Part shown: in pieces, positions 169-36,857 of the stretch
Layout: the number at the start of each line of letters is the position of its first letter
Position numbering within the stretch: position 1 is the stretch's first letter
Assembly (NCBI GenBank): GCA_011959925.1
Contig: BLMD01000272.1
Span: forward strand, 1-37,636
Reading direction: 5' to 3'
DNA length: 37,636 nucleotides
Source: Lachnospiraceae bacterium
GTDB lineage: Bacteria > Bacillota > Clostridia > Lachnospirales > Lachnospiraceae
Notes under the pieces: model-generated
What the model saw: the letters and a program-made list of their open reading frames with translations, nothing else
Told to the model about the DNA's origin: nothing
Databases searched by the model: none
Translations under genes and position numbers: made by a program

Positions 169-3100
169 ATGAAAGCAAAACAAGTATTGGCCGGAATGCT
201 GACAAGTATCATGCTTGTGGCAAACGTTCCGGTTTTTGGGGGAGGGAATTACCCGATGCCGGTAAAGGCAGAGGAAGCGTCTGCCAGAGAACCTGTCCGT
301 TACAGGGCAGTGCCGGGAAGCAGTATGAAAGTAGAGTCGGACTGGAACTGTCGAGAGGATGCAAAATTGGACAATATCAAATCGGATGCCGCCAATTACG
401 CGCTTTCCCGTTATAATACAGGGGGAATACCGAGATCGAGCCAGTTAGAAGCGAGGAACAAGATTTACATCAAACTTGACAATCCGGCGAACGTATCAAA
501 GCTTGTCTGGTGGGCGGATGAAGATGCGATAAGCAACGGTTATGGCTGGAACGTGCATAACGGAACGTTGACGCGCTGCAAGATATCCGTGACAACGGAA
601 AGCGTAGCCAGCGCGGAGGCTATGAGAAACCTGGCGGAAAATCAATGGACAGTTCAGGAGGGTGCTACAGGGGATGTACGGCTGGACTCCAATGACGACA
701 GCAACAAGAACCATGGTTACTGTGAACATGGCAATGATGAGGAACATACGTTAAATGTAGCGCATGATATTAAACTGAGCGATTGCTTTACCGATATTCC
801 TCAGAATATTACAGGTATCCGGATTGAAGTATTGAATACGGCGGGAGCTTATACGGGAAGCAGCGGGGATCAGCCGGAAAAAGACGAGCGTGATACCTAT
901 ATCAACGGCCGTGAATTATGGGTTATGACAGGCGAAGGAAAAGAGAGCAAACTGACCGGATTGACCGCATATGCAGATTTTGCAACAGAAGCGGGCTGCG
1001 GCATTGAAAAGCTTGTCGACGGCGTAATTACAAAAGAAGGAAGAATGAGTTCTCTGACAGAGCCTGCAGCCGGAGAGACAAAAGAGAACGGTCAGTCTCC
1101 CTGGAAAAATAATCACAGAGAATATTTTGCAAACAACAATATCTATATCGATATCGGAGCGACAAAAACGCTTGGAAAACTGACGTATGTGCCGGGAACG
1201 CAGAACGGATCAATCAAGCGCTGCAATATCTATACTTCCAATACGGTTCCGTCAAGCGGGAAAATGGCAGATATTGAGGATTGGGAGCTGGCATATACCA
1301 ACGTCCCGGTACCGGATCAGGACGGAAACATAGATACGTCACGAGACTGGTCAGAGTATAACGGGTCTTTGAGCGCTTTGGGAAATGCAAAGGAAGCTGT
1401 TTTTAACCAATATAAAAATGCGAGATATGTCCGCATTGAAGTCATCAACACGCAGGGAAGCGGGACAGAGAATAAGTGGATCAATATCGGACGCGTCTAC
1501 ATATATGAGGCGGAGGCCGTATATACAGGAACGGTGGAGAATGTGGCGCTTGCTTCCAGCGGGACGCAGGTGGCTGCTTATACAGGAACCTTCCGTGATG
1601 CTTCTTCGGGACAGAACTTATCCCCGGACCGGGCGATTAACGGTCTTGGCAATGACATGACACAGCCGAATAAAAACGGCTGGCATTACTGGGTGGGAAC
1701 GGTTCCGCTTAGAGATGCAAGCTTAAATTCGATTGCGAATAATGTAAATTATATGGTCTTAGACCTCGGAGAACATACGACGGTGGATCTTTCAGAGATT
1801 CAGGTTCGCTGGCAGAATAACGCATGGGCAAGCAGATACAGAATAGAGACCAGCGTTACGCCGCCAGGAGCTACAGGAAATGTCATTACAGGCGACACGA
1901 CGGTGGTGACAGAAAATACGCTGGAAAAAGAAGGCTGGACAACAGTTGCAGAGTACCCGGGGGAAAAAGAGAATCCGCGGGATCGAGTGGCACACAAAAA
2001 TCAGGCTGCCTATGCGTATCCTCTGGATACATTCAGCGGTGATGAGCTTTCGACAAAGGAACTGGGACGTTATGTCCGTATTGTTATAAATGAAGTCAGC
2101 CAGGGAGGTTCCTATACCGCGCCGGGATTACGTGCATTAGAGATTCACGGAATCAGGCAGACCGGAGAGATCAGTAATCTGGATCTGGATCTGAATGAAG
2201 AACCGGTGTATGCGGGAGTTATGCGCAGACCGGATACACCTCAGGGCGCAAACTATCATCTCGAAGATTACGACTGGTACAAAGACGGGATGAAGCTGGA
2301 TAAGGAGAAGAACAGCTTTGGCGCGGGAACATATACATTAAAAGCTAAAGTGGCAACACGGTACGAACTTGCAGAGCTGGTAGAGGCGACCATCGGCGGA
2401 CAGCAGGCAGTGATAGAAGAAGGTACGGAAACCAATTCCGGCGGAGAGACCGTATATACGGTGAGCCGTGAGTATACCATTGAAGATCCCAGTGCAGCAA
2501 AACAGGCGTTGGAGACGTATCTAAACAGTGCAGAGGTTAAAGGGGCGTTTGATACAAATAACAGGGATGAGAGAAACGGGAACAAACTGATTTACCGAAT
2601 TGAAGGCTGGGAGATTTTCCGTGCCGCATATGTAGCTGCAAAAAGTATGATAGAAATGACGACGGAGGGAGGTTCGTCGGATGTCGTATGGTATTTGAAA
2701 TCGGAATATGTAACTGCGAAATCGAAGCTGGAGCGGGCATTTAACGGACTGATACGACGTGGTGAAGGAAATATCATTGAAACGGATAAGGATATGCCGG
2801 ACGTTACGGTCATACCTCCCGCATCGGGAGATTCTCCCGCTAACGCGAAACTTACCAACCCCGGCAAACTTGAGAATGAAAATCTCGGACTGGTGCGGGA
2901 GCGTGATCATTCCAAACCATACTTCCATGTAGATGAGTCTGGATATATGCATGGAAGAGTAAAAGCTCCCAATGATGATGAAAAAAACAGCCTGTTCAAT
3001 TTTAGCGGAACAACAAAATTCATGATCAAATGCCAGGTCAAAGTTCCGGAGCAGGTTACGAAAAAAGAAACGATTGTCGGAAGGTTAAAAGGCTGGGGTC

Positions 3101-5361: not shown

Positions 5362-5377
5362 GGCATAGGATAATATA

Positions 5378-5424
5378 TGAAACGCTGCCAAACAGATCGA
5401 AAGTATCTATGAGGCAGCGTTTCA
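5378..5424 (+). terminator. Perfect 12-bp hairpin after the giant surface protein gene
   Basis: TGAAACGCTGCC (5378-5389) pairs perfectly with GGCAGCGTTTCA (5413-5424) around a 23-nt loop, 17 nt after the stop codon. The tract that follows is AU-rich (ATAATTATAG) rather than poly-T. It may be a weak terminator or an mRNA-stabilising hairpin. Confidence 0.45.
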
Positions 5425-5553
5425 ATAATTATAGCGGCAGACAGCGTTTTGGTCTCAAAAGAGCTATTCTATGCAATATAGCTTTAATATGTTGTAAAAA
5501 GGGATGAAAATATGTTAAAATGTCACTATAATAGAAAGACAAGGGAGGTACAT

Positions 5554-8500
5554 ATGAACAAATTATGGAAACGAATACTGGCAATGACATTGGTATTTGG
5601 TCTGACTGCCAGCAGCATTTGTTTCAAAACGGAAAATGATGCGGCATGGGCAGCGGAACCCGATTTGACGGACGGGCTGGTTGGATACTGGACATTTGAA
5701 GGGGAAACAGAATCAGATCGCCTTGCAAGCAAGGCATCCGTCTCTAATGTGACTGCGGTCAAAACGGGAGACGGCGTTACGTTAAACGGTTTGGGTGAAG
5801 GCGACAGCAACGGAACGATATCTTTTCAAGGCAGCAACAGCTCATATCTCACATTAAATTTGGTGAATGCGGGCATGGGATTGACGTCTTCCAATGCATT
5901 TACACTCGGAGCATGGATCAAATATCAAACGATGACAGGCGACAACACAAGCGTTTTTCATCAGGACGGAACCGGCAGCGGAAGAGCCATTCTAACGATT
6001 GGAAGCAATGGCAAATACGGCACGTATCTGGATGCATCAAACCGGTACTGCAGCCAGACAGTGCAGAGACAGAAGTGGCATCACATTATGTTGTCAGTGG
6101 ACGCTGCAGACGTTTCACCGAGAAAGGTCCGTTTTTATCTGGACGGCGTACTGACCAACGAGGAGACTCTGACCGGAAGCCTTGTAGACGGCAGCGGTAA
6201 TATCCGCGTCGGTGCGCACAGAGATCATGCGGCTAATTCTGCAGTGAACGGGACAATGGATGAGATCCGTTATTACAACAAAGTGATCGATGCTTCTGCC
6301 GTCAAAGCAATTTATGATCTGCACAGCGAAGGAATGGAGACGCAGGAGGTAAGAGAACGGCTGCAGACATGGATTGAAAGGGCAGAAGCGCTGCATGCAG
6401 ACGGCACGGATGAAGCGGCGGCAAACCTGCGGCAGGCAATCCAAAGAGCGGAAGCAATCAAGAACAACGCCTCTGCGCAGATTATGGAAATCGAAGAGGT
6501 GATTACACAGCTTCAGGAAGCGGTACAGGCATATGAGGCAGGCATGCCGATTACAATTGAAGTAGATACTTCCAATGAGATAAGGAATATTCCGTCCGCT
6601 ATGTTTGGCATTAACCATCGTTATCATAATTATGGCTACGGAACCTGGGATCGTGAGAACAATAAAATCAACGATGCGTTTGATGCGCTTACAAAAGAAG
6701 CCAATTTCGGTTCCGTACGTTATCCGGGAGGTACGGTTTCCAATCTCTTTACCTGGAAAGACACGATAGGCGAGGAGAGAACGACAACGATTGCCGGAAA
6801 TAATTTCTATTCCAATGCCGGAGAGCAGCCGGTAGATCCTGCGTTTGGCGTGGATGAAGCGATGAAGTGGATTTACGACGATTTAAATGCAGAAGCGATT
6901 TTTGTCTATGGCCTGGGAAGAGGAAATCCGGAGGATGCGGCGGATCTGGTTGAGTATTTAAACGCGCCCAACGACGGAAGCAATCCGAACGGCGGAACAG
7001 ACTGGGCGAGAGTGCGCGCGGAAAACGGGCATGAAGAACCTTACGGCGTTGTACGGTTTGAACTTGGCAATGAATTCAGCGATACGGGGCAAAATTATTG
7101 GATGTCGGGACTCAGCGAAAATAACAAGGGCGTTGTGGATCTTTATATTGAAGGCGACCGAATGACGATTTCCGGACAGACCAGTTATTATCAGACCAAC
7201 AACAAAGTGGCAAAGAAGGGTGATTGGAGAGCGTCGGCGTCTTTGAGCGACGGAAATCCGAATGAGGAACGTTATGTGTATTATCTTCCGGTTGTACAGG
7301 ATACGGCGGAAGTATTTGTCGCAGGAACAAAGTGGGAAGTGGTAGATTCTCTGGCGGGCAAAGGAGCAGAGAATGTGTGCACATTTGATTACCAAACGGG
7401 TAAAATTACTTTCGGAGACGGGACAAACGGCAATATTCCGGCGCGGGGGGCGCAGATTACCTGCAATTATAAGACAGATCAGGCGGGATTTGTCGATTAT
7501 TATGAAGCGATGAAAGAAGTAGATCCGAACATTGAACTTTATTCCGGCATTTATGACGGGCATCAGAACAGTTTTATCGACAAGATGCATCAAAAGGGAT
7601 ACGATGACAAATATGACGGCGTCATTATTCATCCCTATAGCAAAAGCGTTACCGGTTATGGAGATTCTCTGGTAAAAGCAAAGAATTATTCCAATCAAAT
7701 CGCAACCTATAAAAATAAAATGCATACGGTGACAAACGATGACAGTAAAAAAGTGGCGGTTTCCGAATTTGGAATTTTAAGTGTCAGTCCGGCAAGCAAT
7801 TATCAGACTTCTCTGGGGCATGCGATTTATATTGCAAACCATATGATCGACTGTGTCAATGCCGGAGCGGCATACCAGAACAAACACTGCCTTGTGGATA
7901 CCACGGCGGGAAGCGATAATCTGGGCGCGTGGCAGCAGTGTGTCATTCAGTGCCATGAGGGGAGTGAAGGAAACCAATATGTATCGACTCCTTCCGCCCG
8001 TTTGTTCTCCCTATTCAATCAGATGACGGGAAATCATCAGGTCAGTGAGACGGTCGTGGGCAATGACGTATTTACAGGCAGCGGAAATACTGCCGTGAAT
8101 AACATCAACGTATATTCCACGACAGATGATGACGGAAACACGTATGTTATGGTTGTGAATAATAAAGAAGAGAGCGCGGCTTCTGTTGCACTTTCGATAA
8201 AGGACCGGAATCTGACAGGACAGAAGATACAGGTTTGGTCTCTGGCGTCAGAGAATGTAACGGATATGAATACGTTAGCCGAACCGGATAAAATAACGGT
8301 GGAGAAAACAGAAGTCACGGCGGAAGAGGGCAGTTTTGTTTATACACTGGCTCCTCATGCCGTTTACAGTTTTAAGATCCCGGAAGAAAAGCCGATTGAT
8401 GCCGGAGAGATTGTAGAAACCGGCAGTCAGGAAGGCGGAATGGTAACCGGAATTCCCGATCAGGCGATGCCGGGGGATGTTGTGACAGTGACGGCAGAAC

Positions 8501-9153
8501 CGGAAGAAGGTTATGAATTTGCCGGCTGGTTTATCAAAGGCAGTGAAGAGATGCTTTCCGCAGATAAAAATTATACGTTTACGGTGACGCCGGGACAGAC
8601 GCTTCAAGCAAGGTTTGCAAAGAAAACATTTCAGGTGAAGGTGACGGCGCAGACGGGAGGAAGTGCATCCAGCAGCGTATCGCAGGCCCCCTATCAAACG
8701 TCGGTCACCGTTACGGCATCTTTGCAGGCGGGTTATGAATTTGCCGGCTGGTATGAGGGAAATAAGCTGGTATCGAAGGAGATCCGTTATACGTTTTCTT
8801 TACAGAAAGATACGGAGCTGACGGCAAAATTTACGAAAAAACCCTCGGAGCAGGAAACGATAACAAAACCGGAAGCGCCCAAAGGGCTGAAAGCGAAGAA
8901 AGCAAAGAAGGGAATCCAGTTAAGCTGGAAAAAGACAAACGGAGCGGACGGTTATGTGATTTACCGTTCTTATAAGAAAAAGAAGGGTTATAAAAAAATT
9001 GCCGAGATCAAGAAAGGCGGAACGAAAAAGTATCTGGACAAGAAAGCAAAAAAAGGAAAAACCGCTTATTACAAAATCAAATCTTACAAAAACAGCAGCG
9101 GTAAAAAAGTGCTGAGCGGCACATTTTCTAAAGTGGTAAGCAAAAAGCGGTAA
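5554..9153 (+). CDS. Secreted GH51-like (clan GH-A) glycoside hydrolase with LamG, FIVAR, InlB-type repeats and Fn3
   Basis: The product is 1199 aa. The ATG at 5554 is chosen because GGGAGG (5543-5548) precedes it and the signal peptide MNKLWKRILAM begins there; the frame is also open 14 codons upstream. Order of parts: signal peptide to about residue 34 (AWAAEP), a LamG-type jelly roll (about 40-215), a helical FIVAR-type linker (about 240-325), then a TIM-barrel glycosidase. The barrel shows GH51 landmarks: RYPGG (about 389), WKDTIG, ELGNE with the likely acid/base Glu507, and SEFG with the likely nucleophile Glu738. A stretch of about 130 residues (about 511-643) is inserted between the two catalytic residues. 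Two InlB/Flg_new-like repeats with the GYEFAGW motif (about 954-1093) and a lysine-rich Fn3 module (about 1105-1199) close the protein. An arabinofuranosidase-like activity is plausible, but the substrate is not determined. No cell-wall sorting signal is seen. Confidence 0.8.
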   Translation: MNKLWKRILAMTLVFGLTASSICFKTENDAAWAAEPDLTDGLVGYWTFEGETESDRLASKASVSNVTAVKTGDGVTLNGLGEGDSNGTISFQGSNSSYLTLNLVNAGMGLTSSNAFTLGAWIKYQTMTGDNTSVFHQDGTGSGRAILTIGSNGKYGTYLDASNRYCSQTVQRQKWHHIMLSVDAADVSPRKVRFYLDGVLTNEETLTGSLVDGSGNIRVGAHRDHAANSAVNGTMDEIRYYNKVIDASAVKAIYDLHSEGMETQEVRERLQTWIERAEALHADGTDEAAANLRQAIQRAEAIKNNASAQIMEIEEVITQLQEAVQAYEAGMPITIEVDTSNEIRNIPSAMFGINHRYHNYGYGTWDRENNKINDAFDALTKEANFGSVRYPGGTVSNLFTWKDTIGEERTTTIAGNNFYSNAGEQPVDPAFGVDEAMKWIYDDLNAEAIFVYGLGRGNPEDAADLVEYLNAPNDGSNPNGGTDWARVRAENGHEEPYGVVRFELGNEFSDTGQNYWMSGLSENNKGVVDLYIEGDRMTISGQTSYYQTNNKVAKKGDWRASASLSDGNPNEERYVYYLPVVQDTAEVFVAGTKWEVVDSLAGKGAENVCTFDYQTGKITFGDGTNGNIPARGAQITCNYKTDQAGFVDYYEAMKEVDPNIELYSGIYDGHQNSFIDKMHQKGYDDKYDGVIIHPYSKSVTGYGDSLVKAKNYSNQIATYKNKMHTVTNDDSKKVAVSEFGILSVSPASNYQTSLGHAIYIANHMIDCVNAGAAYQNKHCLVDTTAGSDNLGAWQQCVIQCHEGSEGNQYVSTPSARLFSLFNQMTGNHQVSETVVGNDVFTGSGNTAVNNINVYSTTDDDGNTYVMVVNNKEESAASVALSIKDRNLTGQKIQVWSLASENVTDMNTLAEPDKITVEKTEVTAEEGSFVYTLAPHAVYSFKIPEEKPIDAGEIVETGSQEGGMVTGIPDQAMPGDVVTVTAEPEEGYEFAGWFIKGSEEMLSADKNYTFTVTPGQTLQARFAKKTFQVKVTAQTGGSASSSVSQAPYQTSVTVTASLQAGYEFAGWYEGNKLVSKEIRYTFSLQKDTELTAKFTKKPSEQETITKPEAPKGLKAKKAKKGIQLSWKKTNGADGYVIYRSYKKKKGYKKIAEIKKGGTKKYLDKKAKKGKTAYYKIKSYKNSSGKKVLSGTFSKVVSKKR

Positions 9154-9227
9154 ATGGTACTGTGTAAAACGGGTAAGTTTGTTACAATGGTGACATGAAT
9201 AATAAAATAAGCAGGAGGTATGGATGT

Positions 9228-10154
9228 ATGGACAAACCGGTATTGGTGGTTATGGCAGCAGGCATGGGAAGCCGTTACGGAGGCTTAAAACAGATGGATC
9301 CGATGGATGATGCGGGACATGTAATCCTTGATTTTTCCGTTTACGATGCCATGCTGGCTGGATTTGAAAAGGTAATCTTCATCATAAAAAGAGAGAATGA
9401 AGAAGTATTCCGGGAATGTATCGGAGACCGGATTGCAAAACGGATGCAGGTAACATATGCCTATCAGGATTTAGATGCGCTTCCGGAGGGGTATACGGTT
9501 CCCGAAGGCAGGCAGAAACCGTTTGGTACGGGGCATGCCGTTTTATGCTGCAAGGATCAGGTGAACGGACCGTTCGCAGTGATCAATGCGGATGACTTTT
9601 ACGGGCGCCGTGCATTTCAGATGATTTATGATTATCTGAGCAGTCCGAAAGAGGAAAACGGCAGGTATCAGTATGTGATGGTGGGTTACATTATGGAAAA
9701 TACCCTGACGGAAAACGGATATGTGGCGAGAGGCGTCTGCAGAATCGATGAAAGCGGTCATCTTATGGAAATCCACGAACGTACCAGGATTGAGAGACAC
9801 GGGGATGAAACGGTATATACCGAGGACGAGGGCGCTTCTTGGGTGAAAATTCCGGAGGGAAGCATTGCATCTATGAATATGTGGGGATTCGAGCAGAATC
9901 TGATGGATGAGCTGGAGCAGCGTTTTCCGGCATTCTTAGAAGAAAATCTGTCCGAAAATCCGCTCAAATGTGAATTCTTCCTTCCGTCTGCCGTGCAGCA
10001 GCTGATGGAGGAGCAGAAAGCCGAAGTTGCGGTATTGAAATCCGAGGATCGCTGGTATGGAGTAACATATAAAGAAGATAAAGAAACCGTAATGAAAGCA
10101 ATCGCAGATTTTAAAGCAAACGGGATTTATCCGGAACAATTATGGGAAGCATAA
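9228..10154 (+). CDS. Sugar-1-phosphate nucleotidyltransferase family protein
   Basis: The 308-aa cytosolic protein opens with VMAAGMGSRYGGLKQMDP, the glycine-rich nucleotide-binding signature of the NTP_transferase family. Around residue 120 it has INADDFYGRRAF, matching the metal-binding Asp region. These enzymes join an NTP and a sugar-1-phosphate to make an activated nucleotide sugar. The ATG at 9228 is preferred over an in-frame ATG at 9195 because AGGAGG (9213-9218) lies 9 bp upstream of it and the glycine-rich strand begins at once. The NahK-like kinase follows 14 nt after the stop, with its own ribosome site, so the two are almost certainly one unit: the kinase makes a sugar-1-phosphate and this enzyme activates it. 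The actual sugar is unknown. A possible -10 (TACAAT, 9183-9188) lacks a convincing -35. Confidence 0.85.
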   Translation: MDKPVLVVMAAGMGSRYGGLKQMDPMDDAGHVILDFSVYDAMLAGFEKVIFIIKRENEEVFRECIGDRIAKRMQVTYAYQDLDALPEGYTVPEGRQKPFGTGHAVLCCKDQVNGPFAVINADDFYGRRAFQMIYDYLSSPKEENGRYQYVMVGYIMENTLTENGYVARGVCRIDESGHLMEIHERTRIERHGDETVYTEDEGASWVKIPEGSIASMNMWGFEQNLMDELEQRFPAFLEENLSENPLKCEFFLPSAVQQLMEEQKAEVAVLKSEDRWYGVTYKEDKETVMKAIADFKANGIYPEQLWEA

Positions 10155-10168
10155 GGAGAGGGATACAA

Positions 10169-11242
10169 ATGGAAAAGAAACAGCTTTTGGAACAGTTTTT
10201 GGTAGAGCAGGATGTGGTTTCTGTAGAGCCGTACGGCAGCGGACATATTAATCATACATATCTTGCCAAAATGTCAGAGGGCAGGAAATACATTCTGCAG
10301 GGGATCAATACGACGATATTTAAAAATACGGATGAGCTGATGGAAAATATTCTGCATGTGACGTCGTTTCTGCGGGAGGAGATCAGCCGCACAGGCGGAG
10401 ATCCCAAGAGAGGGACGCTTACCGTAGTCATGACGAAAGACGGATCTTCATACTATACGGATGAAGACGGCAGTAAGTGGCGCGTATATGAGTTTATTGA
10501 AGGCGCACAGACATTTGATGCGGTAGAAAGCAAGGAAGATTTTTACCAGAGCGCCGTAGCGTTCGGCAAATTTCAGGCGCAGCTTGCCAATTTCCCGGCG
10601 GAGACGCTGCATGAAACCATTCCGAATTTCCATAATACGGCGAAAAGATATCAGGATTTTGAAAAAGCAGTAGAAGCGGACGTAAAGGGCAGGGCTGCCG
10701 AAGTGCAGGAAGAAATTGCGTTTGTGCGGGCAAGGAGCAAGGAAGTATCCGAACTTCATGATATGCTGGCAAAAGGCGAGCTGCCGCTGCGGGTTACGCA
10801 TAACGATACGAAACTGAACAATATTATGATCGATTCCGATACGCATCAGGCGATTTGCGTGATCGATCTGGATACGGTAATGCCGGGACTTTCCGCGCAT
10901 GATTTCGGCGATGCGATCCGTTTTGGGGCGAATACGGCTGCAGAAGACGAGCCGGATGTATCAAAAGTATCGCTGTCCCTGGAATTATTTGAGATTTACG
11001 TCAAAGGATTTTTAGAAGGCTGCGGCGGAAGGCTGACGCCGAATGAAATCAAGGTACTGCCGATGGGAGCGAAAATGATGACGTTAGAATGCGGCATGCG
11101 TTTTCTGGCAGATTACCTGGAAGGCGACGTTTATTTTAAAATTTCAAGAGAGAAGCACAATCTTGACCGATGCAGAACGCAGTTTGCGCTGGTAGCGGAT
11201 ATGGAGAAGAAATGGCAGCAGATGTGTGAACTGTGCCGGTAA
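10169..11242 (+). CDS. NahK-like anomeric sugar kinase (APH-fold phosphotransferase)
   Basis: The 357-aa product is close in length to bifidobacterial N-acetylhexosamine 1-kinase. It has the aminoglycoside-phosphotransferase fold: a GSGHINHTY loop near residue 18, the Brenner motif HNDTKLNN with catalytic Asp213 (His211, Asn212), and the metal-binding IDLDTVMPG followed by HDFGD about 25 residues later. NahK-type enzymes phosphorylate a free hexose or N-acetylhexosamine at O1. The ATG at 10169 is chosen for the ribosome site AAGGAGAGGG (10153-10162); an in-frame ATG at 10142 lies inside the previous gene. Placement after a nucleotidyltransferase and secreted glycan-processing genes suggests salvage of a sugar released outside the cell. 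Whether the substrate is GlcNAc, GalNAc or something else cannot be read from the sequence. Confidence 0.8.
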   Translation: MEKKQLLEQFLVEQDVVSVEPYGSGHINHTYLAKMSEGRKYILQGINTTIFKNTDELMENILHVTSFLREEISRTGGDPKRGTLTVVMTKDGSSYYTDEDGSKWRVYEFIEGAQTFDAVESKEDFYQSAVAFGKFQAQLANFPAETLHETIPNFHNTAKRYQDFEKAVEADVKGRAAEVQEEIAFVRARSKEVSELHDMLAKGELPLRVTHNDTKLNNIMIDSDTHQAICVIDLDTVMPGLSAHDFGDAIRFGANTAAEDEPDVSKVSLSLELFEIYVKGFLEGCGGRLTPNEIKVLPMGAKMMTLECGMRFLADYLEGDVYFKISREKHNLDRCRTQFALVADMEKKWQQMCELCR

Positions 11243-24823: not shown

Positions 24824-25480
24824 TTGGAAGTATTGAGAGCAGAGAATATTTCGAGAATATATTCCCAAAATGCGGTATCATTGCAGGTGTTGCATAGTGT
24901 GTCGGTAACGATTCAAAAAGGGGAATTTGTAGCTATACTTGGAAGAAGCGGTTCAGGGAAATCAACGCTTTTAAATATTCTTGCCGGTCTGGACAAACCT
25001 TCAGAGGGGAAGGTCTATATTGAAGGTACGGATATTTTTCATCTGAATGAAGAAAAAAGGACGCTTCTTCGGCGGGAAAAAATAGGTTTTGTATTCCAGG
25101 CATATGAATTACTGTACTCATTGAATGTTACTGAAAATATCCGTCTGCCGGAGCTAGAAGCAAACGCGGATTATGTAGGGGAGCTTCTTGATGCGCTGGG
25201 AATCAGAAAATATGAAACATGTTATCCGGATCAATTATCGGGAGGAGAACAGCAGAGGGTGGCCATTGCAAGGGCGCTGATCAACCATCCGCCCATTCTT
25301 TTTGCCGACGAGCCTACTGGAAATCTTGATTCCAAGTCGGAAAGAATCGTCATAGACCTGTTAAAAAATCTGGCAGAAAAGTATGAAACCAGTATCCTGA
25401 TGGTTACGCATAATGAAGATCTTGTAAAAGATGCGGACCGTGTGATCCGCTTAGAGGACGGTGAAATTGTCAGTGGATAG
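24824..25480 (+). CDS. MacB/LolD-type ABC ATPase
   Basis: The 218-aa protein starts at TTG 24824 with GGAGGT (24808-24813). It has Walker A GRSGSGKST (40-48), Q-loop FVFQAYELL, signature LSGGEQQRVAIARAL, Walker B FADEPTGNLDS and H-loop MVTHN. This is the standard MacB/FtsE/LolD ATPase that drives an FtsX-type permease by mechanotransmission; such pairs in Firmicutes handle antimicrobial peptides or lipoproteins. The Walker B DNA (25304-25321) is almost the same as the prophage target in the paralogue at 30475. It overlaps the FtsX gene. Confidence 0.9.
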   Translation: MEVLRAENISRIYSQNAVSLQVLHSVSVTIQKGEFVAILGRSGSGKSTLLNILAGLDKPSEGKVYIEGTDIFHLNEEKRTLLRREKIGFVFQAYELLYSLNVTENIRLPELEANADYVGELLDALGIRKYETCYPDQLSGGEQQRVAIARALINHPPILFADEPTGNLDSKSERIVIDLLKNLAEKYETSILMVTHNEDLVKDADRVIRLEDGEIVSG

Positions 25481-27842
25481 AAAGAAAATCTTATCTTTAG
25501 TGAGAGGGTATCTTTTAAAAGAGAAAAGGAATACCGTCCTGACAAGCCTGTTTCTTTGTTTTGTCACGGTATTTCTTCTAATTGGGAATCAGCTTTTTGC
25601 AAATGTCCAGACGGTAAACAGATTGAATGCGGAGGCTTTGGAGGGACGGCAGCATGTAACATATTCTGATATTTCAGAGGCAGAGTTTCAGAAGATGAAA
25701 GCATGTGATTTCGTCGCGGATGCCGGGCTGAGCTTCCACCTGGGGCAGGCGGAGGATGGGACGGCATTCGACTATATAGATGAAGGTTTCCGGGATTTAG
25801 GAGCAACTGTAGCAGAGGCGAATATCAAGCAGGTTATAAACGGGCGCTGGGCACAAAAAGAAGAGGAAATTGTATTTACAAAAAATTATATGGAAAAATA
25901 TGGACTGGAATTAGGCGATACGGTTTCTGTCAGCCTGTCAGCTACAGACGCAGATACAGGGGAGGTGACATTCCGCATACCGGATCTTACCCTTACGGTT
26001 ATCGGTGTCATTGACAATGTAGCTGGGTTTACGGACCGGAAAAGCGGATATGTCTCAGAGGCGCTTGCAGAAAAAATACTTAGAGAGAAAAACGGGCGGG
26101 TAAACGCCGTGGTTCGGTTTTCCGATGAGGAGAAAATCCCGGAAAATCTAAATAAGCTGAATGCTTATTTAGGCTATGGAGAGGAAGAGTCAGAAACCTT
26201 AAAAACGCAGATCAATGATATGCTTGCAGAAGCTGTCACGGATGGAGGAACCCTGAAAAAACAGAATATAATCATGAATTTTACCATATGGCTGGTAGGC
26301 ATCCTGGTTGTGTATAACATTTTTTATAACCGCCTTTTTGAAAAGAAACGGGACTTTATTGCTCTGAGAAAAATAGGGTTTCAGACAAAGGATCTGATGA
26401 AAATTGCCGGGATGGAATTCCTGATCTTCATTTTGATCGGATTTGCGACAGGAATCCTGATAGGATATTTCCTGAATCAGGCGGTATATGGCGAGATCAT
26501 GAAAGCATTCGCCCATGCTTATGACGCTGAGGGGCTGGTTTTTTCTGAATTGTCGTGGGACAGCGTAGGGGATACGGCAGTGATGCTCCTGTTCATGGTC
26601 ATACCGAGTATGGCAGGCATTATGTTTCAACTTCAAAATTCCATGCCAACGGAATTTATGCGCGGTAAAAGAAAAAATACAAGAAAGCAGGCGCTGGCGC
26701 TTCTGATTGTGTCGCTTTCTGCAATCCTGATCAGCATCCTGGGAATCCAGGATAACCACAGTGACGAAGGGATTCTTTTTGTTAAGGAATATGTCCCTGG
26801 GGATCTTCAGGTGACAGCAGGCAGCATTTATGAAAATATACAGGGCGGGGATATCCCATCCATATCTGATTCGGTTTTTCAGGAAATGAAAGCAGCTCCG
26901 GGTATCCGGCAGGTGCAGGATTATAAGATCAATTACGACAGGGGAATCTTCCTGTGCGAGGACAGGGGAAAATTAAACGCTGACAGCGGGACTTATGAGT
27001 CGATGCTCGCTATGGAACAGGATATTGACGGAAAGAAACAATGCTTATACAATCTGGTTTTGGCGACAACGGAGAATATGGAGGCGCTGGCGCCAGGTTA
27101 TGACGAAAAAGAGGATGGTTACGCCGCAATCATGGAACCAGAGCTGGCAAAGACATTGAATCTGGAGATTGGGGATACGTTTACCATCTATGATGAGCAA
27201 TTGATTGCAAACGGCTCGAAAGAGGGATGTAAGTCTGCCCGTGTAAAGCTTTTGGATATCCGAAATGTTATATTGTCGGAAAATCATATCGGTGGAAATC
27301 TTCTGGTTGTAGATGAGGAAACTGCCAGGGCTTTTCCGGGCAGTCTGTACCGGCAGGTTGTCAATGTGTGGACCAAGGAGGGCGTGGAGGCAGTTGCCGC
27401 ATCCAATTTGGAGCGTATTTCAGATACGAACGGATATTCCTTCCGCAATGCCAACCGTCAAATACAAAAGTATGTAGATTCGGATCACAGCCAGAAGGTG
27501 ATGCAATGCTTTTTTATCATCATTCTTGCGGTGATCGGCCTTTTGGTCTATTTCAATACCATATTTACAAACCTGCTGAACAGGAGAAATGATTTTAAAA
27601 TCATGCATAAAATCGGCATCCGGAAAAAAGAGATGTATTGGATGATAATGAAAGAGGGCTTATGTCAAGGCGGCGTGGCAGCAGGAATCGTGGTGATTGT
27701 GCAGGCCGCTTGGAGTGCGGGCAGGCAGGAGACATTTTTCAGTATGTTTGCGGTAACAGATGCGATAGTAGTGGCTGCATGCGCATTGTTCCCGGTTTTT
27801 ATACTTTGGTATATGTTTCATAAAAAAATGGCAGTTTCTTAA
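25467..27842 (+). CDS. FtsX/MacB-type ABC permease (791 aa)
   Basis: Starts are ambiguous (GTG 25461, TTG 25467, GTG 25473); TTG 25467 has AGAGGA at the best spacing. The protein has a first span (about 20-45), an outside MacB_PCD-like domain (about 50-265), then three spans around FTIWLVGILVVYNIFYN, EFLIFILIGFATGILIGYFL and AVMLLFMVIPSMAGIMF. A cytosolic link and another span (ALALLIVSLSAILISIL) lead to a second outside domain and C-terminal spans with the FtsX-type motif FNTIFTNLLNRRNDF. It overlaps the ATPase gene by 14 nt and is followed at once by a two-component system, as in antimicrobial-peptide response modules. Cargo unknown. Confidence 0.85.
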   Translation: MSVDRKKILSLVRGYLLKEKRNTVLTSLFLCFVTVFLLIGNQLFANVQTVNRLNAEALEGRQHVTYSDISEAEFQKMKACDFVADAGLSFHLGQAEDGTAFDYIDEGFRDLGATVAEANIKQVINGRWAQKEEEIVFTKNYMEKYGLELGDTVSVSLSATDADTGEVTFRIPDLTLTVIGVIDNVAGFTDRKSGYVSEALAEKILREKNGRVNAVVRFSDEEKIPENLNKLNAYLGYGEEESETLKTQINDMLAEAVTDGGTLKKQNIIMNFTIWLVGILVVYNIFYNRLFEKKRDFIALRKIGFQTKDLMKIAGMEFLIFILIGFATGILIGYFLNQAVYGEIMKAFAHAYDAEGLVFSELSWDSVGDTAVMLLFMVIPSMAGIMFQLQNSMPTEFMRGKRKNTRKQALALLIVSLSAILISILGIQDNHSDEGILFVKEYVPGDLQVTAGSIYENIQGGDIPSISDSVFQEMKAAPGIRQVQDYKINYDRGIFLCEDRGKLNADSGTYESMLAMEQDIDGKKQCLYNLVLATTENMEALAPGYDEKEDGYAAIMEPELAKTLNLEIGDTFTIYDEQLIANGSKEGCKSARVKLLDIRNVILSENHIGGNLLVVDEETARAFPGSLYRQVVNVWTKEGVEAVAASNLERISDTNGYSFRNANRQIQKYVDSDHSQKVMQCFFIIILAVIGLLVYFNTIFTNLLNRRNDFKIMHKIGIRKKEMYWMIMKEGLCQGGVAAGIVVIVQAAWSAGRQETFFSMFAVTDAIVVAACALFPVFILWYMFHKKMAVS

Positions 27843-27858
27843 TGTGCTGGAGATTATC

Positions 27859-28551
27859 ATGAAAGACAAAAAGATATTATATGTAGAAGATGATTTAAGC
27901 CTGATTGAAGGCCTGAAATATACACTTGAGAAAAATGGTTTTCTGGTAGATAATGCCCGTACCGTAATGGAAACATATCAATTCTTCCGGGCAGGCCAGT
28001 ATGACCTTCTGCTGCTGGATGTCACGCTGCCGGACGGGACAGGCTTTGATATCTGTAAAGAAGTAAGAAAGACCTCTGCTGTCCCGATCATATTCCTGAC
28101 AGCTTCGGATGAAGAGATCAGCATTGTAAAAGGGCTGGACATGGGTGGAGATGACTACATTACCAAACCCTTTAAATTAGGGGAGGTCCTTTCAAGGATC
28201 AACGCATTGCTGCGCCGTTCTGGGCAGCAATTTCATAAGAGTGATACGATTCTGGAATCCGATGGGATCCGGATTGACCTGTCTGAACGGATCTGTTGGA
28301 AAGGGGAAACAGAGATTCCCTTAACATTGGTGGAATATAAGCTGCTCTGCCTGTTTTTGAAGAATCCAGGCCGCATCCTGCCAAGGGAACTGATCTTAGA
28401 CCGCCTTTGGGATGGGAACGGCAGCTATGTGGATGACAATACCCTTTCCGTCTATATACGCAGGCTGAGGAGGAAGATTGAAGATGACCCGAATTCCCCC
28501 ACAAAGCTTCTGACGGAGATCGGGTTTGGCTATAAATGGGCCGGGGAGTGA
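27859..28551 (+). CDS. OmpR/PhoB-type response regulator
   Basis: The 230-aa protein begins at ATG 27859 (CTGGAG upstream); a GTG at 27844 is less likely. The receiver domain shows VEDD, phospho-acceptor Asp54 in LLLLDVTLPDG, and KPF. The winged helix (about 130-230) ends with SVYIRRLRRKIEDDP and TEIGFGYKW. It lies between the FtsX permease gene and the kinase gene and likely controls the flanking ABC genes in response to the kinase. Confidence 0.92.
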   Translation: MKDKKILYVEDDLSLIEGLKYTLEKNGFLVDNARTVMETYQFFRAGQYDLLLLDVTLPDGTGFDICKEVRKTSAVPIIFLTASDEEISIVKGLDMGGDDYITKPFKLGEVLSRINALLRRSGQQFHKSDTILESDGIRIDLSERICWKGETEIPLTLVEYKLLCLFLKNPGRILPRELILDRLWDGNGSYVDDNTLSVYIRRLRRKIEDDPNSPTKLLTEIGFGYKWAGE

Positions 28552-28557
28552 TGGAAG

Positions 28558-29805
28558 ATGAAAACAATGGGAAAAGAAACAAGGAGGATGCTGTGCTGCC
28601 TGCTTGCCATCTGTCTGGCTACGGCGGCAGGTTTCACGGTCGTTTTGTCTTATATGACGAATGATTACCAGAAAACAATGGTGGAGCATGATTATGGGAC
28701 GGCAGGGTATCTGGTAAACCACCCGGACACAAATGTGGCAGCCGCGTTTACGAAAGACAAAACGGACTCTGACCTGGAGGCCGGAAGGCGGATCCTTAAG
28801 GAAGCGGGTTACCATGGAAATGCAGATCCCAGACTGATCCCTGCCGTATACGCTTACCGAAAGCATACCGCCGCCTGGTTCGGAGGTATGTTTTTTTGTG
28901 CTTTTCTAGCTGTTTTTCTGACAGTCTGGATCTACATCCGGAAACAAAACAAAGCGATAGCAAAGGCAGATACTGTGATTACCCGGTTCCTTTCAGGGGA
29001 TACGGGACAGAGGATTGACAGTGAGGAAACCGGGGACTGGTACAGCCTGTTCCATAGGATCAATGAACTTGCCGCTATCCTCTCTGCCCAGGCAGAACAT
29101 GAAAAACAGACGCGCGAATTTCTGCAGGGTATGATCTCAGATGTTTCCCACCAGTTAAAGACGCCCCTGGCGGCGCTTAAAATGTATGATGAGATTATGG
29201 TGCAGGAGGGTACGGACAGGGAGACAATCCAGGAATTTACTCGGAAATCCCTGCGGGAAATACGCCGGGTGGAAGATGTAGTTTATACGCTCTTAAAAAT
29301 AGCCAGGCTGGACGCAGGCACGGTTAGGATGGAAAAGGCAGAGGAAAACATAGAAATGCTCCTTACGGATGTGACGGAACGCTTTGAGACATTTGCCACT
29401 CAGGACGCGAAAGAAATTGTATTATCCGGGAACAGCGATGTTTCCCTTTACTGCGATGCCCTCTGGATGTCGGAAGCTTTGGGGAATGTGGTGAAAAATG
29501 CGCTGGAGCATACCAAAAGAGGCGGGAAAGTAGTAATCAGCTGGGAGAGGACGCCCCTTCTTACAAATATTGTGGTGGAAGACAACGGAACAGGGATCCA
29601 CCAGGAGGATATCCATAATATCTTCAAACGGTTCTACCGGAGCCGTTTTTCCCAGGATATCCATGGAATCGGCCTGGGGCTGCCGCTGGCAAAATCCATT
29701 GTGGAAGCCCATCAGGGGACGATTTCTGTAACCAGCAGGGTCGGACAGGGAAGCAGGTTTGTCTTAAGTTTTTTTACCATACAGGAAACTTCGTTCCCTG
29801 TATGA
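28558..29805 (+). CDS. Sensor histidine kinase (HisKA/HATPase)
   Basis: The 415-aa kinase has a first span (about 11-33), a short outside domain of about 75 residues (YMTNDYQKTMVEHDYGTAGY), a second span (about 109-127), a HAMP-like linker, and HisKA DVSHQLKTPLAALK with His198. The ATPase follows with N-box NVVKNALEHT, G1 DNGTGI and G2 GIGLGLPLAKSIV. It is 6 nt after the regulator gene and forms a complete OmpR-type system. The short outside domain suggests direct ligand sensing at the membrane or through an ABC partner. Confidence 0.92.
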   Translation: MKTMGKETRRMLCCLLAICLATAAGFTVVLSYMTNDYQKTMVEHDYGTAGYLVNHPDTNVAAAFTKDKTDSDLEAGRRILKEAGYHGNADPRLIPAVYAYRKHTAAWFGGMFFCAFLAVFLTVWIYIRKQNKAIAKADTVITRFLSGDTGQRIDSEETGDWYSLFHRINELAAILSAQAEHEKQTREFLQGMISDVSHQLKTPLAALKMYDEIMVQEGTDRETIQEFTRKSLREIRRVEDVVYTLLKIARLDAGTVRMEKAEENIEMLLTDVTERFETFATQDAKEIVLSGNSDVSLYCDALWMSEALGNVVKNALEHTKRGGKVVISWERTPLLTNIVVEDNGTGIHQEDIHNIFKRFYRSRFSQDIHGIGLGLPLAKSIVEAHQGTISVTSRVGQGSRFVLSFFTIQETSFPV

Positions 29806-29982: not shown

Positions 29983-30492
29983 ATGAATATTCTTGAAGTA
30001 CAAAATCTATGCAAGACCTATGGAAAAGGGGAAGCGGAAGTCCGGGCGCTTGACCATGTTTCCTTCTCCGTGGGCAAAGGGGAATTTATCGCAATCGTAG
30101 GCGAATCCGGATCCGGAAAAAGCACGCTTTTAAATGTGGTGGGGGCTTTGGATAACCCGACATCCGGAAAAGTGCTGATTGATGGCAAGGACATTTTTTC
30201 CATGCCCGAAAAGAAACTCACGGTGTTCCGCCGCCAGAATATCGGGTTTATCTTCCAGTCCTTTAACCTGATCCCGGAATTGAATGTAGAGCAGAACATT
30301 ACATTCCCATTGCTTTTGGACTACCAGAAACCGGATCAGAAGTATGTGGAGGAGCTGCTAGAGATTCTGGGATTAAAGGAGCGCAGGAAACACCTGCCCA
30401 GCCAGCTTTCCGGAGGACAGCAGCAGAGAGTGGCAATCGGCAGGGCGCTGGCGGCCCGACCTGCCATCATCATGGCGGATGAGCCTACCGGA
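29983..30492 (+). pseudogene. MacB-type ABC ATPase gene interrupted by prophage after Walker B
   Basis: From ATG 29983 (an ATG at 29977 is also possible; ribosome site AAAGGCAGG) the frame encodes a normal MacB/LolD ATPase: Walker A GESGSGKST, Q-loop FIFQSFNLIPE, signature LSGGQQQRVAIGRAL and Walker B IIMADEPTG. After that Gly (30490-30492) the expected NLD is replaced by GAKLVVQQ, and the frame runs through prophage DNA antisense to the integrase tail to a stop at 30576. About 170 of roughly 225-250 residues are native. The D-loop, H-loop and the presumed downstream permease are separated by the prophage, so the lysogen cannot make this transporter. The gene follows a two-component system, a typical antimicrobial-peptide response layout. 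Confidence 0.88.
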
Positions 30493-30516
30493 GGGGCAAA
30501 GTTAGTAGTACAACAA
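30475..30516. other. Left prophage-chromosome junction (attL)
   Basis: Chromosomal ATPase sequence is continuous up to GAGCCTACCGGA (30481-30492). The following GGGGCAAAGTTAGTAGTAC is not ATPase sequence and lies directly beside the integrase stop codon at 30517. The crossover core must lie within or next to GCCTACCGGAGG. The exact core cannot be fixed without attR or the empty site. Confidence 0.7.
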
Positions 30517-31908
30517 TCACAAAAAAATAATGTGGATATTTTTCTCATGGTCAACACGGATTTCCTTGACGATTGACCGCCACAATTCACGCTTTTCCGG
30601 AATGGAAAAAGAATCATATACACTTTCAAAATCCATTTTCAAGAACTCCCGCAGATATGACAAATCCTTGACGGGGCGGGAATCCTCTGCATTGATTTTC
30701 TCAAGCTGCAAAAGCAGCTTTTCCCGATCAAGTTTAAATTCATCCATCGTTATGAGGTCATTCAAAAACAGGTCTTTCAATTTCTGTAATTTGTTTTCGA
30801 CACTCCGGCGTTTTGCGTCCGTCCGGATGGCGGGCAGGTTCGCAACCTCATATTCTGCAATATACTTTTCAAGTTCCGGACGGATGCGGTCAAGCATCAT
30901 CGCCTCAAGGGTGGATTCCATGACGATTTTCCGGTTCGGGCATCGGTGCAGGTTCACGCCCTGTCTGCATCGGTAGCAGCTATATTTGTATATTGCCCGT
31001 GTACCGTCCGCACGGAGGCGACCGCCACACCGATGTTGACATCCGCTCATGACATGATCGCAGTCGTCGCAGACCACAAGCCCGCCGAAAATATAATCAT
31101 GCTTTTTCCCGTCCTTGATGTTGATTTTGAGAAGTCGCTGAACGTCCTCAAAGAGATCACGGTCAATAATTGCCGGACAGTATTCTTTATTATCCCGAAA
31201 CTCTCCGATGTATTTTGTGTTTGTGAGCATATTCTTGAGACTGGCAGCAGATCGAACCAGTCCGAACTCTGATTCCATATACCGGAGTGTTTCACTCAAG
31301 TTCCCGCTCTTTCGATAAAACTGAAAGATTGCAACGGCGGTCGGGGCATCGTCATTCGGTGTGAGGTGCTTGCCTTTGATGGAATATCCGAGCGGGGTTG
31401 AGCCGGAAAGAACCTCACCGTTGTCAACCTTGTCATCGAACACGCCGAGGATTCTGTCAGAATCGTTTTGAGCCTCAAGTTCAGCCCATATCATTGAATT
31501 ATTCACGAACGCCCGTCCGTGGGGCGTGGATGTGTCAAAATAGGGCTGCTCAATCGCAGTCCACGAAACACCGTATTTGTCGAGGATGTCTTGCGTGTTC
31601 AGATAATGCCGGAGGTTTCTGAACCATCGGTCAAGGCGGGTGAAAATGACAAGGTCAATCTTTCCCGCCCGCACATCATCGAGGAGGCGTTGAAAATCGT
31701 CTCTCTTGAGTTTTTGTCCGGAGATTCCGTCGTCGATGTAGGTATCAACGAGAATCATGTTCTCATGCGTGTCGATGTATTTCTGTCCGGTCGATAGTTG
31801 GTCACGCATGGAATCGCCCTCTTTTACTTGCCTGTCAGTAGATACACGGATATAGATTGCGACACGGAACAGGATTTTCTCAACGGTGGCGACGGTTTTT
31901 CGTCTCAT
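30517..31908 (-). CDS. Large serine recombinase (prophage integrase)
   Basis: The product is 463 aa from the ATG at 31908 (TGGAG at 8 bp on the minus strand); an upstream ATG at 31926 lacks a ribosome site. The resolvase domain has catalytic Ser23 in YIRVSTDRQ and the R-rich FTRLDRWFRN. A recombinase domain follows (GYSIKGKHLTPNDD, LTNTKYIGEF). A zinc ribbon has CDDC and CYRC pairs, and a coiled coil (KLQKLKDLFLNDLITMDEFK) precedes the C-terminus. Such integrases join attP and attB directionally with a 2-bp core and need a recombination directionality factor to excise. The stop codon is about 25 bp from the junction, the classic position. The target is the ABC ATPase gene. Confidence 0.95.
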   Translation of the reverse strand: MRRKTVATVEKILFRVAIYIRVSTDRQVKEGDSMRDQLSTGQKYIDTHENMILVDTYIDDGISGQKLKRDDFQRLLDDVRAGKIDLVIFTRLDRWFRNLRHYLNTQDILDKYGVSWTAIEQPYFDTSTPHGRAFVNNSMIWAELEAQNDSDRILGVFDDKVDNGEVLSGSTPLGYSIKGKHLTPNDDAPTAVAIFQFYRKSGNLSETLRYMESEFGLVRSAASLKNMLTNTKYIGEFRDNKEYCPAIIDRDLFEDVQRLLKINIKDGKKHDYIFGGLVVCDDCDHVMSGCQHRCGGRLRADGTRAIYKYSCYRCRQGVNLHRCPNRKIVMESTLEAMMLDRIRPELEKYIAEYEVANLPAIRTDAKRRSVENKLQKLKDLFLNDLITMDEFKLDREKLLLQLEKINAEDSRPVKDLSYLREFLKMDFESVYDSFSIPEKRELWRSIVKEIRVDHEKNIHIIFL

Positions 31909-32076: not shown

Positions 32077-32619
32077 TTATCTATAATAGCCGACAGTTTC
32101 ATCGTCGAGGCTCTTGTCTTTTTCCTCAACATAATCTGTATAGTCATAATTGACGATTTTGTAAAAGGCAATAACAAGATGTATTTCTCCGGTTTCGTCA
32201 TCATATCCAAGAATTTGTGAAAAAATAGGTCTATGATTTTCGAGTGAGTTCTTGATTTCGGATGCTATGTGAGCATCAGTCACAAAACCGAGGGTCTCAA
32301 CAATGCGTTTTGCGATGACCATATCATTCTCAACCACAAAATACACATTGTCACAGCAGTCGATTTTTGAGAAGTCCGGCATAGAATCCGGACGTTGCAA
32401 TTCAACATCCTCAAATTTTTCAATTAACTTGCTTTTCATATGATTTCCAATATAAACAGTCGGAATCTCAATAGATTTCTCAACGGGCTTTTGGGGTTCG
32501 GGGTTAAGCGGTTCAGTCTCTTTTTGCATGAGTTCCCGCTGACAGTTGGAACAAAGTCCGGTTTTTATATTTATCATGAGAAATAAACCGTGACGACCGC
32601 ATTTTCTACATTTTGACAT
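32077..32619 (-). CDS. Zinc-ribbon phage protein of unknown function, lysogeny strand (180 aa)
   Basis: The N-terminus CRKCGRHGLFLMINIKTG then CSNC is a four-cysteine zinc ribbon. A linker PLNPEPQKPVEK and a C-terminal domain (about 50-175) follow, with alternating strands and helices (DNVYFVVENDMVIAKRIVET, SQILGYDDETGEIHLVIAFY). GGAGGTG lies just before the start at 32619. It is transcribed in the same direction as integrase and repressor, so it may be expressed in the lysogen; such positions often hold superinfection-exclusion or lysogenic-conversion genes (inference). No named family recognised. It is divergent from the XRE gene at 32690, whose promoter overlaps its start codon. Confidence 0.7.
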   Translation of the reverse strand: MSKCRKCGRHGLFLMINIKTGLCSNCQRELMQKETEPLNPEPQKPVEKSIEIPTVYIGNHMKSKLIEKFEDVELQRPDSMPDFSKIDCCDNVYFVVENDMVIAKRIVETLGFVTDAHIASEIKNSLENHRPIFSQILGYDDETGEIHLVIAFYKIVNYDYTDYVEEKDKSLDDETVGYYR

Positions 32620-36263: not shown

Positions 36264-36857
36264 ATGCAAATAGATATTTTCAGCACGGAAAATAAGTACA
36301 ACGTGATATATGCTGACCCGCCGTGGAAATTTGGGAGCAAAGAGGTTCAAAAATACGGCGGGAAAAGATTCAGACCTCTTGAAAAAGTGTATAGCACGGA
36401 AAAAAGTGCAGACATGGAGCAGTGGGATGTGAAAAGAATCGCAGATGAAAATTGCGCTATTTTCATGTGGTCAACGGACGCTCATATAAAAGAGGCAGTT
36501 AAGCTAATGGAGGCATGGGGGTTCAAGTATGTAACGATTGCCTTTATATGGGCTAAAACTACAAAAAACGGTAAGCAAATCAGCAATTTAGGGGCATGGA
36601 CGATGAAAAATTGCGAAATATGCTTATTTGGAACAAAGGGAACTATGCTCAAGTATAAAAAATCAAATAGTGTCAAGCAATTATTCTATGCGGAAAGACG
36701 GGAACACAGCAGAAAACCGAATTGCGTCAGAGAATTTATAAATGAATTATTCGGGGATATTCCCAAAATAGAACTATTCGCAAGAGAGGAGATTGATGGG
36801 TGGGATAGTTGGGGAGATGAAGTTGGAATATTTGATGCACAGGGGGCAGTTGAATGA
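36264..36857 (+). CDS. MT-A70 family adenine-N6 DNA methyltransferase
   Basis: The 197-aa enzyme has the catalytic DPPW at residues 18-21 (VIYADPPWKFG), then CAIFMWSTDAHIKEAVKL and the SAM-binding ending REEIDGWDSWGDEVG. MT-A70 proteins transfer a methyl group from SAM to adenine N6, in phages usually on DNA to protect against host restriction or to control expression. The ribosome site is GGAGGA (36250-36255). It begins 3 nt after the radical SAM stop and overlaps the next gene by 4 nt (ATGA), so the three are one translational unit. The target sequence is unknown. No restriction partner is near. Confidence 0.93.
   Translation: MQIDIFSTENKYNVIYADPPWKFGSKEVQKYGGKRFRPLEKVYSTEKSADMEQWDVKRIADENCAIFMWSTDAHIKEAVKLMEAWGFKYVTIAFIWAKTTKNGKQISNLGAWTMKNCEICLFGTKGTMLKYKKSNSVKQLFYAERREHSRKPNCVREFINELFGDIPKIELFAREEIDGWDSWGDEVGIFDAQGAVE

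Follow-up and report, generated by a model that had tools for sequence, protein, structure and literature searches.

A gene for an ABC ATPase in the genome of a Lachnospiraceae bacterium breaks off within a conserved motif and continues as prophage DNA. A preliminary description of this locus, made from the letters alone, had proposed that the prophage might serve as a reversible switch of a regulated antimicrobial-peptide-type transporter. This raises the question whether the phage controls this particular gene or whether it uses codons that many genes have in common. Here we analysed the window, that is the whole stretch of 37,636 nt, together with related integrase loci (L numbers), genomes (G) and contigs (C). 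The window constitutes the entire contig C272 of a genome assembled in 418 contigs with an estimated contamination of 5.16%. In our assessment it is highly probable that a temperate phage lands on the widespread protein-motif codons of ABC ATPases and that no dedicated switch is involved. Prophage insertion into a regulated transporter does not by itself indicate a regulatory switch.

The gene order on the window is FtsX, response regulator, kinase and ATPase (Table 1), which agrees with the placement of the ATPase downstream of a two-component system and an FtsX system in the preliminary description. The ATPase frame from 29983 matches PF00005 at 6.8e-36 in Pfam, and its best NCBIfam models, LolD, DarD, YbbA, FtsE and MacB, are all under cut-off. 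As had been noticed, the frame is clean up to ADEPTG, with the Asp codon at 30478, and then turns into prophage DNA, adding 27 foreign residues before a stop that ends at 30576. The insertion had been assigned to the Walker B codons. More exactly, the break is in the Thr codon directly after the Walker B Asp-Glu and before the D-loop. The 27 foreign codons after Gly replace the region of the D-loop and the switch histidine. Integration truncates the ATPase before both elements, and for as long as the prophage remains, the transporter is expected to be inactive. DEPTG was found uninterrupted in 21 of the 40 ABC ATPases fetched from the window's genome (111 matches in all), and the other 19 carry DEPIN, DEPTA, DEPTS, DEPFS and so on.

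The integrase stop is located 28 bp from the crossover, close to the approximately 25 bp estimated before. Its domains (PF00239, PF07508, PF13408) and the YIRVS motif are those of phiC31/A118-type enzymes, and the att sites have the corresponding make-up of a palindromic attP, a differing attB and a short common core with a central dinucleotide. The enzyme is the sole match in its own genome at E <= 1e-60.

Table 1. Features of the window, and junctions of related integrases at other targets. Positions refer to the window unless a locus is named.
Feature	Position	Strand	Evidence or remark
ABC ATPase, MacB/LolD-like, paralogue of the broken one	24824..25480	+	PF00005 2e-36; uninterrupted DEPTGNLD (L138)
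FtsX-type permease beside the paralogue ATPase	25461..27842	+	PF02687 4.6e-16
Response regulator	27844..28551	+	PF00072, PF00486
Sensor histidine kinase	28558..29805	+	HisKA, HATPase_c
Interrupted ABC ATPase, host 5' part, ends in ADEPTG Thr codon	29983..30488	+	translation, PF00005
att core CCTACCGG, Pro-Thr-Gly codons	30484..30491	+	18 attL aligned; arm symmetry
ATPase frame running on into phage DNA, to stop	30489..30576	+	translation
attL phage arm with AAGTTAGTAG (30499-30508)	30489..30511	+	inverted partner of CTACTAACTT in attR
Prophage, integrase-proximal part, ended by contig edge	30489..37636	.	phage-gene matches
Large serine integrase, 469 aa	30517..31926	-	Resolvase, Recombinase, Zn-ribbon; phrog_95 1.1e-99
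Phage-side gene without Pfam or PHROG match	32077..32619	-	profile searches
HTH repressor-like phage regulator	33144..33869	-	HTH_19, phrog_8
Radical-SAM phage protein	35244..36260	+	phrog_9298 4.9e-98
MT-A70 DNA methyltransferase	36264..36857	+	PF05063, phrog_359
Nucleoside 2-deoxyribosyltransferase-like phage protein	36854..37183	+	phrog_355
att arm junction of decayed relative, in-frame Pro-Thr-Gly, non-ABC frame	L021:5380-5712
RadC target, HNHPSG	L110
Response regulator target, LPDG	L129
Fe-alcohol dehydrogenase target, LPHG	L130
SpaA domain target	L073
IS4/5 transposase target	L090
NMT1-like binding protein target	L034
Terminase large subunit target, NPEG	L093		Pfam just under cut-off; phrog_2 5.7e-16

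Because the window is an entire contig, attR had to be sought on other contigs, and this was done via ATPase C-terminal halves at contig ends with a paralogous ATPase as the query. It was detected on another contig of this genome, C391, at whose beginning the phage arm ...CTACTAACTTATACCCG is followed by codons for PTGNLDSKNSQEV..., a stop and a 774-aa FtsX/MacB permease. The ATPase continuation on C391 translates as PTGNLDSKN..., hence the flank holds the remaining ATPase (NLD...) and the downstream permease that the preliminary description had expected there. Among the contig-end halves fetched, C391 alone has a phage arm before the ATPase C-half, and by this arm and the gene order it is probably the partner of C272. 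Three further candidates, C125, C116 and C285, were rejected as their ATPase C-halves stop at the contig end with nothing beyond. C125 and C116 end within a few bases of the ADEPTG codons, probably at assembly breaks between near-identical ABC paralogues. In G315 and G398, ATPase C-halves follow an arm that differs little from that of C391, and in G400 (Blautia luti) and G247 they follow related arms, giving matching attR junctions in five genomes, the window's included. The C-half is directly followed by an FtsX permease in G315, G398 and G400, while the next scanned gene in G247 is a response regulator. From the junction coordinates, the prophages have sizes of ~41 kb (G315), ~40 kb (G398), ~25 kb (G400) and ~38 kb (G247).

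The empty site was examined in genus-mates by searching the two ATPase halves separately and not as a joined sequence. Matches were obtained in 14 of 15 genomes, with the window's genome counted, and the halves adjoin without a gap in all 11 genus-mate loci examined (one per genome), at a first-half identity of 54-77%. A permease match follows in 8 of these loci and ...ADEPTGNLD... was read in five. Judged by this similarity, we regard the uninterrupted genes as homologues of the broken ATPase. The junction is real, its other end has been located, and excision would rebuild the ATPase gene.

The crossover dinucleotide AC is positioned at 30487-30488 within the Thr codon. In the window, 18 of 26 arm positions are symmetric around AC; across the five elements for which both ends were read, the phage arms form inverted repeats around this dinucleotide at 17-20 of 26 positions. 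Using these five elements and placing the crossover at AC, attP and attB mismatched at 6 of the 10 third-codon positions that flank the dinucleotide, compared with 0 of the 30 remaining core positions (Fisher p 5.5e-5). The att core seems to read two letters per codon and to ignore the third. The position of the phage arm relative to the core is constant across the ATPase junctions.

Next to their integrases, 19 of 66 loci, including the window, end at these ABC ATPase codons (3 of the 66 are without flank). This bears out the earlier suggestion of a conserved nucleotide-binding motif as the target, here in many genes: the 18 target ATPase halves, one of which (L075) contributes 20 residues only, fall into 15 clusters at 70% identity, and the median pairwise identity is 43% over 106 pairs. 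The 5' half lies beside the integrase in 18 of the junctions (reverse) and the 3' half in one (L018, forward). Relatives with >70% integrase identity and a readable junction sit at DEPTG in an ABC ATPase in 10 of 11 cases, and eight more distant relatives likewise break an ABC ATPase at the DEPTG codons. The junction recurs in the isolate contigs of 1XD21-13 and Blautia luti MSK.16.34. No phage arm was found at L011. The decayed relative L021 (87%, integrase internally deleted) joins a frame of 81 codons without a Pfam match at ...AKAYEP(TG), which indicates that the target is not ABC ATPases alone. Among truncated-looking ATPases in G406 and G402, the one on C43 of G402 is the L019 junction itself; the two others were rejected as junctions since they showed no DEPTG.

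Even close relatives enter different genes. At 84-97% integrase identity many ATPases are used, and L013 and L014, the only relatives within 95-97% of the window integrase, have targets to which that of the window is 55-56% identical. One metagenome-assembled genome carries the integrase on two contigs (L018, L019) at two different ATPases. The neighbours upstream of the broken ATPase vary as well: L016 has a kinase and a response regulator there, L017 and L080 have FtsX, L014 has phosphoglucose isomerase, L015 a Cys/Met PLP enzyme and L083 an amidase. In L019 and L020 the nearest scanned upstream ORFs gave no match (an intervening 131-aa ORF was left out for L020). A two-component system is located upstream only in L016 among the eight other loci with a nearby upstream ORF scanned.

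These results are best explained by the following scenario. A tailed-type temperate phage would have entered the coding region of the ATPase gene by means of the large serine integrase that it encodes, exchanging strands at the central AC in CCN-AC-NGG, whose fixed letters are the first and second positions of the codons for Pro, Thr and Gly. The sequence DEPTG(N/A)LD would mark MacB/LolD-like exporter ATPases, and as one genome holds about twenty of them, the phage should find a site in almost any related host. Integration would usually cost the host one of many paralogues, and judging from the motif counts it may be neutral through ATPase redundancy. The core needs AC-NGG, which is given by DEPTG and not by the other 19 ATPases, and so the link to a peptide-exporter-like operon would follow from the motif. 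The entry of one integrase group into many divergent genes with varied neighbours points to a general landing strategy and not to a switch of a single transporter. Loss of transport upon integration is expected, and precise excision would rebuild the gene, as with any prophage inside a gene. The recombination activity of the window integrase is suggested by the integrated copies and by a free attP in a related clade.

A decayed, immobile prophage that knocks out the ATPase permanently is improbable. Such a state would agree with the fragment assembled here and with the decayed integrase of the relative L021. A DNA similarity search of the window's own genome, using 20 kb from the 1XD21-13 prophage, recovered none of the phage beyond the window's 7.1 kb, and the predicted attP was not found in this assembly within 3 mismatches. 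However, the integrase has an intact frame and reaches 97% identity to integrases of other prophages, and both att halves are well preserved. Moreover, the close relative 1XD21-13 possesses a full-looking prophage with terminase subunits, portal, protease, capsid, tape measure and Dit (10 proteins scanned). The full-looking prophage of this relative also counts in favour of the preliminary description. The window prophage can presumably excise.

Active lysogeny, in which the prophage would be kept as a reversible on/off switch of the regulated antimicrobial-peptide-type transporter, has a very low probability. The position of the ATPase after a two-component system, the intact gene halves at both junctions and the uninterrupted homologues of the genus-mates, with their following permease matches, would suit such a role, as would the kinase and response regulator at L016 and the response regulator near the G247 attR. 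Yet the target is not a constant regulated gene, given the 15 ATPase clusters, the varied neighbours and the one non-ABC frame, and the ATPase stays under the cut-off of the generic LolD/MacB models that it matches. Neither an attP nor a second, uninterrupted copy of the flank was found in this assembly, and an excision factor was not identified, though none was sought by name. On these grounds, we do not retain the regulated switch of this transporter suggested in the preliminary description. An assembly chimera or a random insertion can practically be dismissed in spite of the fragmented and partly contaminated assembly, since the same junction occurs in independent assemblies and isolates, has matching attR counterparts in five genomes and recurs in 18 other loci, which makes chance or artefact very unlikely.

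The landing on ATPase codons appears in more than one lineage of these integrases. In a tree of 65 rows, the window's clade was sister to the feoB-entering integrases (98/96 support), apart from a second DEPTG clade. Forcing both DEPTG clades together was rejected (AU p 7.7e-5; 8 + 17 rows, the group being named post hoc and 9 of the 17 second-clade rows being without an own ATPase junction). Two integrase clades that are not joined on this tree thus use the DEPTG site. Of seven free palindromic attPs from the second clade and its closest kin, six have GT at the centre, GT being AC read from the opposite strand. In this related clade the same integrase gene (1371/1371 nt) is found next to a free attP in L082 and in integrated form at DEPTG in L083, and both sequences run together to CCCGTGGG and then diverge, which suggests a circular or concatemeric form for the second clade, not for the window's. 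For clade I, the window's own, the attP palindrome pattern was met in one unrelated contig only and no free attP was detected; the attL junction pattern gave 0 matches in viral contigs.

The feoB junctions lie at His-Thr-Gly, with FeoB_N confirmed in L025, and share ACNGGN with Pro-Thr-Gly-Asn-Leu. Both orientations were observed in feoB, a GT core with the 5' half adjacent (L024, L029) and an AC core with the 3' half adjacent (L025-L028), the latter like L018. In other serine integrases, the central dinucleotide alone sets the orientation. The feoB and L018 orientations, as read here, fit this rule. At L018:600-960, the sole DEPTG-type junction in the opposite orientation, the core on the integrase strand is AC and not GT at the same spacing, so that in this natural example the dinucleotide may have determined the orientation. 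In L024-L029, L175, L178 and L183, integrases of the sister group or similar to clade II were found in feoB at His-Thr-Gly. The likeness of this feoB site to the ABC Pro-Thr-Gly core is a plausible route for target switching. At L079, a clade II integrase breaks a topoisomerase-like gene, as judged from reading the sequence, at Gln-Thr-Gly, apparently a secondary site.

The codon-level core is the part of the finding that merits follow-up; much of this superclade has an att core of the form CCN-NN-NGG, in frame Pro-X-Gly. CC....GG is present within 70 nt of the integrase stop in 52 of 70 related flanks, compared to 7.7 expected by shuffling, and missing from the first 70 nt in 18. Since the flanks are interrelated, these counts lack independence, and counting began after the rule had been noticed in the data. 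Left out as duplicates were L022, L023, L030, L072, L088, L112 and the phiCD27 copies L120-L127, and in addition L011, L074, L084, L103, L106, L128 and L131, with the flank lacking or cut, and L021. For 15 clear attP palindromes the centre was located with the innermost three bases disregarded; CCN-NN-NGG is present in 11 of them, and four have a TCN core instead (L096, L098, L099, L101). The reading frame was then considered in 50 loci, 8 of which have no core and 11 short open frames only, leaving 31 with a frame of at least 70 codons, including the free attP of L094 and perhaps another in L092. The longest frame from the core reads Pro-X-Gly in 29 of the 31, and for the remaining two, L018 and L073, Pro-X-Gly is likewise the reading in the recognisable gene. 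Further targets are listed in Table 1. L039 and L186 are broken at ...GLIGP and ...GFLGP, which by sequence resemble Walker A (GPNG/GPSG) of ABC ATPases, in short pieces without a Pfam match. As attL carries only the host half of the core, the other residue was read from attR in five elements; elsewhere it was supplied from the protein family, presumably HNHPSG for RadC, NPxG for terminase, LPxDG for response regulators and the corresponding motif for Fe-ADH. The feoB hosts carry CAT (His) and not CCN, which speaks against the rule, as does the Gln-Thr-Gly site of L079. Twelve new loci served as an out-of-sample test, 8 of which fit the rule or its feoB variant, namely L174, L179 and L186 with in-frame Pro-X-Gly, L189 with a free attP CCG-AA-TGG, and L175, L178, L183 and L181 (cut short) at FeoB His-Thr-Gly or alike, three of these last four being from the genus of the already known L029. 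The other four (L184, L185, L187, L188) were misfits or unclear.

We tentatively propose that the integrases of this superclade may read coding DNA by codon, with CCN-XX-NGG standing for a conserved Pro-X-Gly, the third letters being free, and with clades shifting their target via XX. If this somewhat doubtful proposal holds, the dinucleotide AC would stand for Pro-Thr-Gly in ABC ATPases and for His-Thr-Gly in FeoB. Other dinucleotides could, with similar reserve, correspond to Pro-Asn/Ser-Gly of Walker A, Pro-Ser-Gly of RadC, Pro-Asp-Gly of response regulators, Pro-His-Gly of Fe-ADH and Pro-Glu-Gly of the terminase of a rival prophage. Reading the codons of invariant residues and skipping synonymous positions would explain precise landing across divergent hosts. 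In-frame CCN-XX-NGG as Pro-X-Gly would provide a simple rule by which the targets of many gut-phage integrases could be predicted and natural integrases with known multi-copy targets chosen.

Among known systems, the integrases of Enterococcus phiFL1-3 and Efs 1-1-1 are ~47% identical and have the core type described here, but the Efs 1-1-1 core (CCAGATGG, integrase strand) is located in radC at HNHP(SG) and not in an ABC ATPase. The integrase of Clostridioides phage phiCD27 is 34.5% identical and its attP is palindromic as well, whereas its core CCA-CT-TGG has a different dinucleotide (CT). Read from the complementary strand, this core would encode Pro-Ser-Gly, the residues found in Walker A. 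Its attB reportedly lies in an ABC-transporter ATPase gene. The prophage in comK of Listeria interrupts one defined functional gene that is restored by precise excision; the window resembles it in its interrupted, restorable gene and differs in that many paralogues are available. The same holds for the active lysogeny of Staphylococcus Sa3int prophages at hlb, where a functional gene is interrupted but the target is a single defined one. Multi-targeting large serine recombinases were defined in PMC10083194 as members of a 90% identity cluster whose targets fall into more than three clusters at 50% identity, with targets allowed to be present at many sites per host (Durrant et al. 2022). They are similar to the present case in that close-relative integrases enter several different genes; in contrast, the aligned example in that text has a TT core with T/A-rich ends, and here CCN-AC-NGG lies in the frame of a motif. 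The words ABC, ATPase and ATP-binding have 0 word-start occurrences in the main text of PMC10083194. Among the CC-licensed PubMed Central matches listed, no report covered serine integrases at ABC ATPase, feoB or Walker-motif targets, or a codon rule.

Some other loci deserve mention. In L093 (10135-10629) a superclade integrase sits within the terminase large subunit of another prophage, broken at NP(EG), and in L174 (2871-4325) within a large protein of an unnamed phage family in another prophage, broken at LPT(G); both insertions are possible instances of phage-on-phage interference. In L187 and L188, no phage arm can be seen between the serine integrases and the leucine-rich-repeat-like genes that they directly abut. 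On the window, positions 169-9153 encode two very large surface-type proteins (leucine-rich-repeat; laminin-G plus arabinofuranosidase-like domains), and at 9195-11242 a nucleotidyltransferase is followed by a choline-kinase/APH-family gene, perhaps a pair for phosphocholine-type surface decoration.
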